Assembly: GCA_945874825.1 (NCBI GenBank)
Contig: CAMCIK010000008.1
Location: 1 to 64,000 of the forward strand
Reading direction: 5' to 3'
Length of the DNA stretch: 64,000 nt
Source of the DNA: Phenylobacterium deserti
Lineage (GTDB): Bacteria > Pseudomonadota > Alphaproteobacteria > Caulobacterales > Caulobacteraceae
The notes under the pieces were generated by a model. It saw only the letters and a program-made list of their open reading frames with translations, ran no database searches and was not told the origin of the DNA. Shown piece after piece: positions 56,310-62,041 of this stretch (position 1 is its first letter; the number at the start of each line of letters is the position of its first letter). The position numbers were made by a program, and so were the translations under genes.

Positions 56310-57797
56310 ATGGACCTGGATCCCGCCGCCAGCTTTCGCGCCTTCGCTACCCGGGACGAGCGACTCGACGGACGGCTGTTCGGGGGCGTCGTCACGACTG
56401 GAATCTACTGCCGGCCCGTTTGTCCGGCCCGGAAGCCCCGGCCGGAGAATGGGCGGTTCTTCAGCTCGGCGGCGGCAGCCCAGCATGCGGGTTTCCGGCC
56501 CTGCCTGAGGTGCCGCCCGGAGACCGCCCCGGAACTCGGTGCCTGGAACGGGACCGGCAACACGGTCTCCCGGGCCCTGGCCCTGATCGACCTAGGGGCC
56601 CTGGACACCGGCGACCTCCAGGACCTGACCCGACGTCTGGGCGTCGGAGAACGGCATCTCAGGCGCCTCTTCCAGGAACACCTAGGGGCCTCGCCTGTCT
56701 CGGTGGCCCAGACGCGGCGGCTCCTCACGGCCCGCCGCCTGATCCTCGAGACCGGGCTCTCCATGTCTGAGGTGGCCCTCGCCTCCGGCTTTGGCAGCAT
56801 CCGGCGCTTCAACGAGGCTTTCCAGGCCGCCGGCGGCAGTGCGCCCTCGAGCCTGCGCGCACGGTCCGGGGCCAAGGCGGGGCTGGAGGGCGGCGTCACC
56901 CTAAGGCTCGCCTACCGAGCGCCCTACGACTGGCCCCGCATGCTGGACTTCTTCGCCCAGCGGCAGGTGGCAGGTGTCGAAAGCATCGACGGGCAGGCCT
57001 ATGTGCGGACCCTAGCGGTCGGGGGCGTCGCAGGAGTGGTCCGGGTTGAGCCTGGTCGGGGCGACAGTCTGTCCGCCAGCCTCTGGTTTCCTGATCTCCG
57101 CGGCCTTCCCCGGGTCCTGGCCCAGGTACGGCGGGTGTTCGACCTCGCCCTGGACCCTGAACCCGTTCTGGCGCATCTGGGCGAGGATCCGGATCTCGTG
57201 CCCCTCCTTGCCCAGCGGCCGGGTCTTCGGGCGCCCGGCGCCTGGGACGGCTTCGAGCTGGCGGTCAGAGCCATTCTCGGCCAGCAGGTGTCGGTCACAG
57301 CCGCCCGGGGCCTGGCGGGTCGTATCGCGGAGCGCCACGGCGTTCGCCTCGACTTCGAGCCGGCCCGCCGGTTCGGCCTGGACCGGCTGTTCCCGGGACC
57401 AGAGCGCCTCGCCGGCATCGACCCGGAGTCCCTGCCCATGCCCCGGGCCCGCGGCCGGGCCCTGGCGGCCATCGCCCAACTGGCCCTGGAAGACGGCCAG
57501 CTGTTCGGTCCCGGCCAGGACCTCGAAAGCGCTGTCCGCAGACTCACCGCCCTTCCGGGGATCGGGGCCTGGACCGCCCAGTACATCGCCATGCGCGCCC
57601 TGCGCGAGCCCGACGCCTTCCCGCATTCGGACCTGGCCCTCCTGAGGGCGGCTGCGGACCCGGAAGGGCGGCGCCCCTCCCCCGAAGCCCTGCTGGCGCG
57701 GGCAGAGGCCTGGCGTCCCTGGCGGGCCTACGCCGCGGCCCATCTCTGGGCGAAGGACGCTGACGCCGCATCCCACCGCAAAGGACATCCGGAATGA
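56310..57797 (+). CDS. Ada N-terminal / AraC / AlkA-type 3-methyladenine glycosylase fusion
   Basis: GVVTTGIYCRPVCPARKPRPENGRFF and FRPCLRCRPE (Ada Zn site); AraC HTH; GQQVSVTAARGLAGRIAERHG plus LPGIGAWTAQYIAMRAL (HhH-GPD). Confidence 0.95.
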   Translation: MDLDPAASFRAFATRDERLDGRLFGGVVTTGIYCRPVCPARKPRPENGRFFSSAAAAQHAGFRPCLRCRPETAPELGAWNGTGNTVSRALALIDLGALDTGDLQDLTRRLGVGERHLRRLFQEHLGASPVSVAQTRRLLTARRLILETGLSMSEVALASGFGSIRRFNEAFQAAGGSAPSSLRARSGAKAGLEGGVTLRLAYRAPYDWPRMLDFFAQRQVAGVESIDGQAYVRTLAVGGVAGVVRVEPGRGDSLSASLWFPDLRGLPRVLAQVRRVFDLALDPEPVLAHLGEDPDLVPLLAQRPGLRAPGAWDGFELAVRAILGQQVSVTAARGLAGRIAERHGVRLDFEPARRFGLDRLFPGPERLAGIDPESLPMPRARGRALAAIAQLALEDGQLFGPGQDLESAVRRLTALPGIGAWTAQYIAMRALREPDAFPHSDLALLRAAADPEGRRPSPEALLARAEAWRPWRAYAAAHLWAKDADAASHRKGHPE

Positions 57798-58369
57798 AGA
57801 TCGACGCCCCTGCGCCCCTTCGGCTGACAGTCTCGGAACTCTCCTCGCCCCTCGGCTGGATCGAGGTGATCCTCGACGAGGCCGGAATTGTCCGGGGCCT
57901 CGACTTCGGCTCCGGACTCCCGCGGATTCGCCGCCGGATGGAGCGCCTGTATCCCGGACTCCTCTTCAGAGCCGGGACAGCGCCCGCCCGAGTATCGCAG
58001 GCACTGGAGGGATACTTTGAGGGCGACCCGGGCGCCCTGGCCCGGCTCGACTGTGCCACCGCGGGGACACGCTTCCAGGAGCATGTCTGGACGGCACTGT
58101 GCGACATTCCACCCGGCGTGACCCGGAGCTATCTCGATATCGCCCTGCAGGTGGCCTCGCCGCAGGCAGTCCGGGCGGTGGGTCTGGCGAACGGTGCGAA
58201 CCCTGTGGCCCTGCTCATCCCGTGTCATCGCGTGATCGGCCGGTCAGGCGCCCTGACCGGTTATGCCGGCGGCCTGGACCGAAAGGCCTGGCTGCTGGCT
58301 CACGAAGGTGCGCCCGTCGCCGCCCCGGGGTGGGCGTCCCGCCACTCGTCGACGGTCATCTCCCAATAG
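57794..58369 (+). CDS. ogt: Methylated-DNA-[protein]-cysteine S-methyltransferase
   Basis: ANGANPVALLIPCHRVIGRSGALTGYAGGLDRKAWLLAHEG. Confidence 0.95.
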   Translation: MKIDAPAPLRLTVSELSSPLGWIEVILDEAGIVRGLDFGSGLPRIRRRMERLYPGLLFRAGTAPARVSQALEGYFEGDPGALARLDCATAGTRFQEHVWTALCDIPPGVTRSYLDIALQVASPQAVRAVGLANGANPVALLIPCHRVIGRSGALTGYAGGLDRKAWLLAHEGAPVAAPGWASRHSSTVISQ

Positions 58370-60471: not shown

Positions 60472-60658
60472 GCAGGGACTCCTTACCTGGGCAGTGTCGG
60501 CCGTCCGGGCACCCGGATCAAATCCAAATCCATGGGAAGGTGTCCAGAAACGTTCACAGTTCGCCGGAGCCCCTCAATCGGCTCCAAGGCGACTTGCCGT
60601 CGGCGCCACCAAGGGATTAAGAGCCAGAGGAACAGATATACCCGGAGGGAACCTCACC

Positions 60659-61981
60659 ATGAAACGCCTCGTACTCGGCCTGGCCACGGCGGGCCTGGCC
60701 CTCGTGCTGGGAACGGCTGTTGCCGTCTCGGCCTCCAAGAAGGAAGAAGCCGCCCTGGCGGCGGCGCGCACCCAGGGAATGGCAGAGGCCCCCGCCGTCG
60801 CCCAGGCGGCCGGCATCGCCTGCCAGGTCACCGACGCGCGCTTCGTCGGCAAGATGGTGGATCCCAAGACCAAGGCCGCCACCAACTTCTACGAGATCGA
60901 CTGCGATCGCGGCGTCGGCTTCGTCCTTCAGGCTCCCGCCGGCGTCAAGCCCACCGCCTTCAGCTGCGTCGAGGCCAATTCTACCCAGCCGGACGGCAAG
61001 CCGCCGTCCCTGCCCTGCAAACTGCCTGGAAACGCCAATGCGCTGGCTGACCTTGCGCCCCTCCTGACCAAGGCGGGGGTGGCCTGTACACCTGACGCCG
61101 CCCGGGGCATTGGCCAGACGGCCAAGAACACCTTCCTTGAAGTCTCCTGCCAGGGCGGCTCCGGTTATGTCCTGCAGGTTGATGCGCCGGCCAATCCCGA
61201 TGGCACCGCGGTCGCCAACGACTGCCTGACCTTCGACGCGACCGCCGGCAACATCAAGTGCACCCTGCATGACGCCGCCTACCGCCTGGCCGTTGTCGAC
61301 CGCTACGCCGCGGCCGCCAACAATGGCTGCGTGGTGAAGGATCGCCGTTACATCGGCATGTCTCAGGGAGGATCGAGTTATTACGAAGCCTCCTGCCAGG
61401 ACGGCAAGGGCTACATCTACAAGGTCGAGAAGGGCCAGGTCTCCCAGACCACGTCCTGCGAGAAGGCCATGGCCCTGCTGGGCGGCTGCACCCTGACGGA
61501 CGCCAAGGAGGCCCAGACCGCCCAGGCCGGCCTCTATTCGAATCTGTCCAAGAAGGCCGGCTTCGACTGCCAGGTCTCCAAGTATGCGCCCTTCCCCGCA
61601 CCGGCCGGCAAGGACGTCGTTGAGATGGCCTGCGCCAACCGCCCGGACGGTGCCGTCGGCATCTTCACGGCCAAGGCCGAAACCACCCAGGTGGTGGACT
61701 GCGCCCGAGCGCCGATCGTCGGATACCGCTGCTCCTTCTCCAAACCTGAGGCCTCCCTCAAGGCCGTGACGAGTGACCTCAAGAAGATGGGCAAGACGGA
61801 GTGCGAGGTCTCGGCGGTACGCGTGCTCGGCAAGACCGCGACCGGCACCACATACCTCGAGACCGCCTGCGCTGACGGCCTCAAGGGCTATATCCTGGAG
61901 TACAAGAGCGAGCCTCTGACGCCGATCAACGCCGTGGGCTGCGCCTTCTCCAGGGATTGCGCCCTGCCCGGCAACAAGTAG
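60659..61981 (+). CDS. Secreted/periplasmic cysteine-repeat protein, five degenerate ~80-aa repeats with four Cys each
   Basis: Signal-like MKRLVLGLATAGLALVLGTAVAVSA; exactly 20 Cys by hand count in five groups of four; repeat marker YxExxC (FYEIDC/FLEVSC/YYEASC/VVEMAC/YLETAC). Confidence 0.85.
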   Translation: MKRLVLGLATAGLALVLGTAVAVSASKKEEAALAAARTQGMAEAPAVAQAAGIACQVTDARFVGKMVDPKTKAATNFYEIDCDRGVGFVLQAPAGVKPTAFSCVEANSTQPDGKPPSLPCKLPGNANALADLAPLLTKAGVACTPDAARGIGQTAKNTFLEVSCQGGSGYVLQVDAPANPDGTAVANDCLTFDATAGNIKCTLHDAAYRLAVVDRYAAAANNGCVVKDRRYIGMSQGGSSYYEASCQDGKGYIYKVEKGQVSQTTSCEKAMALLGGCTLTDAKEAQTAQAGLYSNLSKKAGFDCQVSKYAPFPAPAGKDVVEMACANRPDGAVGIFTAKAETTQVVDCARAPIVGYRCSFSKPEASLKAVTSDLKKMGKTECEVSAVRVLGKTATGTTYLETACADGLKGYILEYKSEPLTPINAVGCAFSRDCALPGNK

Positions 61982-62005
61982 GGCGGGCATAGTCCCGAAT
62001 GACGA

Positions 62006-62041
62006 GGGCCCGCGGGATCGCTTCCGCGGGCCCTTTTCTTT
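62006..62041 (+). terminator. Intrinsic terminator after the cysteine-repeat gene
   Basis: GGGCCCGCGG-GATCGCTT-CCGCGGGCCC followed by TTTTCTTT. Confidence 0.85.

Follow-up and report, generated by a model that had tools for sequence, protein, structure and literature searches.

Tandem domains of approximately 75-80 amino acids are known from bacterial periplasmic proteins of the BLIP/PepSY/SmpA_OmlA/DUF2874 (PF11396) group, whose members carry between one and four copies of the domain and for which inhibition has been proposed as a function (PMC2954215). In Caulobacter crescentus, the secreted envelope protein YjbI, which is built of repeats and contains cysteines, takes part in outer-membrane regulation (PMC12864828) and illustrates one role open to a protein of this sort. 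The protein described here is encoded in the window, i.e., the 64,000-nucleotide stretch of Phenylobacterium deserti DNA that was analysed. It shares with the first group tandem domains of similar size, predicted export and, judging by the secondary structure of our models, a helical region followed by four antiparallel strands. It differs in that no sequence relation and no significant structural match could be detected, and in having four invariant cysteines per domain and five copies of it. With YjbI, compared by description, it has in common a repeat structure with conserved cysteine pairs, occurrence in the Caulobacteraceae and predicted secretion, whereas YjbI is a pentapeptide-repeat beta-helix with four cysteines in all (PMC12864828).

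Table 1. Features of the five-repeat gene in the window.
Feature	Position	Strand	Description and basis
Ribosome-binding site GGAGGG	60644..60649	+	9 nt 5' of the ATG; sequence
Gene for the five-repeat, probably exported protein	60659..61981	+	440 aa plus stop; translation
Predicted Sec-type signal peptide	60659..60733	+	residues 1-25; basic n-region, hydrophobic core, ...AVSA/SKK; by eye
Repeat 1	60767..61036	+	Cys 55/82/103/120; alignment, profiles, model
Repeat 2	61031..61279	+	Cys 143/164/189/201; alignment, profiles, model
Repeat 3	61274..61507	+	Cys 224/246/267/277; modelled alone, pLDDT 89, pTM 0.81
Repeat 4	61514..61750	+	Cys 304/325/348/358; alignment, profiles, model
Repeat 5	61748..61978	+	Cys 382/404/428/434; C3-C4 gap of only six residues
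Intrinsic terminator	62004..62035	+	14-pair stem, T-rich tail

The ATG at 60659 is backed by the GGAGGG at 60644-60649, and this start is fixed because the reading frame is closed about 15 codons upstream in two relatives (L005 and L007). Comparison of the gene with its close relatives gave dN/dS values of 0.12-0.18; it is therefore a translated gene under purifying selection. The P. deserti genome carries one copy, and the mature part of the protein contains one histidine and no tryptophan. The initial annotation had presented the gene as monocistronic with a clean terminator; the genes on either side lie on the opposite strand, and the stem of the terminator was found 3' of the gene. No promoter-like site for the gene was found by a sigma-70 scan. 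Elsewhere in the window (56310-58369, + strand), two overlapping ORFs look like a single operon; judged by eye, they would encode a DNA alkylation repair protein of the Ada/AlkA type and a methylguanine methyltransferase.

The translation contains 20 cysteines and no others, arranged in five groups of four exactly as had been proposed (Table 1). It also agrees with the spacings of 88, 81, 80 and 78 residues reported between first cysteines, and with the contexts listed for the second ones (FYEIDC, FLEVSC, YYEASC, VVEMAC and YLETAC). The G(Y/F)-containing strand said to follow the second cysteine is present in the other repeats, but repeat 4 (VGIFTAK) has no Y or F after the G. The regularity of the cysteine spacing is not due to chance, since 200,000 random placements of 20 cysteines produced no match to it. 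Profile comparison shows homology among the five repeats, with pairwise hhalign probabilities of 98.0-99.6% and E values ranging from 2e-13 to 5e-24.

This arrangement is conserved among relatives. In 89 homologues, all 20 cysteine columns are near-invariant, 19 being free of substitution and one showing a single serine. Exactly four cysteines were counted in 466 of the 469 repeats scored in 104 homologues and paralogues, the three exceptions being repeats truncated where a contig or a model stops. These 104 sequences differ in size by whole units, with 1, 2, 3, 4 or 5 repeats. Five repeats is the commonest form among homologues; one genus of the Caulobacteraceae mostly has three instead, and four-repeat forms occur in other members of the family (L071, L080). 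Across diverse repeats, only the four cysteines and the glutamate of the ExxC motif are fully invariant, while the glycine preceding strand 3 is nearly so. These residues look like a structural fold signature, with no obvious catalytic set. In a tree of the repeats, which rests on few columns and leaves many forks unsettled, repeats of like position mostly cluster together, and this is clearest for repeats 1, 4 and 5. Such clustering suggests that the five-repeat form is old in the Caulobacteraceae and predates the spread of the family.

Structure prediction gave the full-length protein as five distinct copies of a single four-cysteine domain, and one repeat was also modelled by itself. Repeat 3, predicted with an alignment of 75 repeats (scores in Table 1), was modelled with helices at residues 2-5 and 8-15, strands at 21-29, 35-41, 46-52 and 55-61, and a last helix at 62-67, so that an antiparallel meander sheet of four strands lies between an initial helical part and a short final helix. 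In this model C1 comes immediately before strand 1, strand 2 ends at C2, C3 lies right after strand 4 and C4 in the tail. The full-length model repeats the same order of elements five times with a pLDDT of about 80 and a pTM of 0.52, the latter being as expected if the arrangement of the domains were loose or poorly determined. Confidently predicted domains in a chain with this whole-chain pTM are consistent with a beads-on-a-string layout, without amounting to proof of it.

The initial annotation could not assign the protein to a named family and took it for an uncharacterised repeat family. This reading held: Pfam, NCBIfam, PDB sequences and Foldseek yielded no confident match, and the repeat is a domain with no name, domain model or solved relative. 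The whole protein had no Pfam match to PepSY, BLIP-like or DUF2874 families at E values up to 10, nor did 53 diverse repeats at E values up to 1. No match to the five-repeat protein was obtained among PDB sequences, nor any in a viral fold library. A Foldseek search with the single domain gave no match at E <= 0.001; its best 50 entries included none named BLIP or PepSY, and the highest TM-score over the query, 0.46, was to propeller blades. Foldseek's top matches, beta-propeller blades and galectin-like sheets, share with the repeat a local four-stranded antiparallel meander, whereas neither the closed ring of blades nor a global superposition was found (single-domain TM-scores of at most 0.46). 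Full-length matches to nucleoporins, galactanases and lectins (E values down to 1.5e-6) were rejected as local sheet similarity because their TM-scores were only 0.11-0.16 with an rmsd of approximately 19-30 A. The NCBIfam model NF049870 (MakCD) matched weakly a 38-residue stretch of repeat 3 (E 0.0052; 16.9 bits against a cut-off of 110 bits), and only one of the 53 diverse repeats matched it (E 0.04). Sixteen of 23 close orthologues also match but share one segment, and the diverse repeats disagree; we consider this match as noise or as a lead only. A literature search, made without a locus tag or sequence, found no description of the five-repeat protein.

These searches bear directly on the main rival explanation, according to which the protein is a periplasmic inhibitor or regulator like those of the BLIP/PepSY/SmpA_OmlA/DUF2874 group, its tandem domains clamping a peptidase, a lytic enzyme or another envelope partner. 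Domain size, element order, tandem copies and predicted export all match the description of that group (PMC2954215), and the sheet modelled for the single repeat is of the same type. Yet the 53 repeats scanned against Pfam recovered neither PepSY, BLIP nor related families, the PDB sequences gave nothing, the single domain found no structural match at E 0.001 or better and came closest to propeller blades, and no enzyme is consistently encoded beside the gene. We therefore regard an inhibitor of this type as unlikely.

Export of the protein by the Sec pathway is probable, based on a signal peptide that is clear by eye and conserved in relatives, its cleavage site also being placed by eye. It lacks a lipobox cysteine, and residues 1-25 form the only low-confidence segment of the full-length model. 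The same genome encodes DsbB. The presence of cysteines in whole fours across proteins of one to five repeats strongly supports the probable formation of disulfides within each repeat; this gain and loss in fours is the strongest sequence evidence for pairing inside the repeat. The most likely connectivity would be C1-C2 and C3-C4, since each of these pairs would close a loop of variable length. Co-loss of a cysteine pair was sought as a clue to connectivity, and no repeat with a lost pair was found among the 469 repeats of the 104 proteins. Cysteine spacings within the repeats range from 6 to 27 and CxxC is absent from every repeat; both facts speak against redox sites of the thioredoxin type and against zinc knuckles. 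Four invariant cysteines per unit, whatever the number of units, might also be expected of a protein that binds metal (Zn, Fe-S or Cu) through each repeat and stores or handles it in the envelope. However, the lack of any closely spaced CxxC pair, the disulfide-forming enzyme of the genome, the export signal, the near-absence of histidine and the absence of metal transport genes among the neighbours together make this reading very improbable.

The protein is nearly universal in the Caulobacteraceae and nearly exclusive to them. A homologue was found in 148 of the 150 genomes of the family sampled, and in all 134 that were near-complete (completeness >= 90%, contamination <= 5%), covering 22 of 22 genera. 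Its presence in Caulobacter crescentus is likely, given named Phenylobacterium records and this occurrence in every genus. In a sample of 120 genomes from the order, the 25 with a homologue were all Caulobacteraceae, and none of the 95 others had one. Approximately 380 genomes of the class from outside the family provided one clear case, a three-repeat protein encoded on an 11-kb contig of a metagenome-assembled genome (MAG) with 5% contamination (G473) and missing from four relatives; it may be the result of contamination or transfer. A Gly-rich insert in repeat 1 is common to this protein (L159:206-1267, +) and to a three-repeat protein from inside the family (L152:4965-6038, -, G055), which suggests either a transfer or the misbinning of a contig. 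The phylum sample yielded no credible homologue beyond the Caulobacteraceae, and plasmids and phages gave no match. Several other candidates from outside the family were rejected: L144 and L145 are not plausible genes, and L146 matches over no more than 34 of the 75 positions of the profile (E 0.0043). L115 (1495-1893, -), from genome G356 of another alphaproteobacterial family, encodes 132 aa, apparently membrane-anchored, with one possible four-cysteine domain. Its membership is doubtful, as it is a weak match (E 0.0013), lacks the invariant glutamate and does not occur in the single sister genome.

The locus is mostly syntenic and lies among housekeeping genes. In many genera the gene is divergent to genes for an MBL-fold hydrolase and a protein like enoyl-CoA hydratase, with GNAT, DUF1285-like, NUDIX and CCA-adding enzyme genes in the same run and a TPP enzyme or dihydroorotase-like gene downstream, identities being read from sequence. 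Being all housekeeping, the neighbours of the conserved locus imply no functional guild or partner.

Paralogues are found in other settings. In genus g14, a second copy of five or three repeats (L082:4911-6329, -; L157:4983-6389, +; L165:4986-5960, -; L166:4791-6287, +) has a CcrM-like DNA methyltransferase gene and an RNase HII gene to one side and genes for two DsbA-like thioredoxins to the other. An extra exported paralogue with two repeats and eight cysteines occurs in genus g22 (L160:4995-5684, -; L161-L164) and adjoins YchF-like GTPase and dienelactone hydrolase-like genes. A single-repeat exported paralogue was detected in one genome (L155:4962-5465, -), next to a PdaC/DUF3298-like lipoprotein gene. 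A further paralogue, in genome G091 (L151:4644-6236, -), combines three four-cysteine repeats and a TonB_C domain (PF03544, residues 451-527, E 1.7e-8) in one fusion protein. Contexts such as the TonB_C fusion and the CcrM-like and DsbA-like flanks provide weak functional hints.

The TonB_C fusion, together with a five-repeat paralogue (L093) that adjoins a TonB-dependent receptor gene, would fit a role in TonB-dependent uptake as the partner of an outer-membrane receptor. We nevertheless consider such a role decidedly unlikely: the fusion is absent from 15 other genomes of its genus (1 of 16 overall), a genus in which many other proteins carry TonB_C domains, and no such gene is found at the conserved orthologous locus.

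The explanation that we prefer, and to which we give an even chance of being right, is that of a lineage-specific, Sec-exported and Dsb-oxidised envelope protein, whose disulfide-pinned domains constitute a multivalent binding or structural array. According to this proposal, the protein would be exported by Sec as a soluble envelope protein and its signal peptide removed, after which the periplasmic Dsb system would oxidise the mature protein, with DsbB driving the oxidation. Five tandem copies of the small domain (helices, four-stranded antiparallel meander, short helix) would each be pinned by two intra-repeat disulfides, most likely C1-C2 and C3-C4, and joined by short linkers into what would be an elongated chain. 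This chain may serve as a non-catalytic array, for multivalent binding or structure, devoted to one constitutive partner in the periplasm or outer membrane; it is the architecture that suggests the binding role. More tentatively, and with much more doubt than confidence, the repeat could represent a new domain superfamily, possibly with a new fold arrangement, that originated in the ancestor of the Caulobacteraceae or close to it. The protein would then be an indispensable envelope component, and losing it would kill or badly harm any member of the family, C. crescentus included.

A single protein thus marks a whole bacterial family, being found in each near-complete genome sampled and almost nowhere else. 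The repeat would add a domain to Pfam, and oxidative folding in the Alphaproteobacteria would probably gain a major client. The natural series of 1, 2, 3, 4 and 5 disulfide-pinned units should be useful for the study of repeat-protein evolution and for design. One member of the Caulobacteraceae is a leading model for bacterial cell biology, and the protein could be a clue to an envelope function found only in this family.
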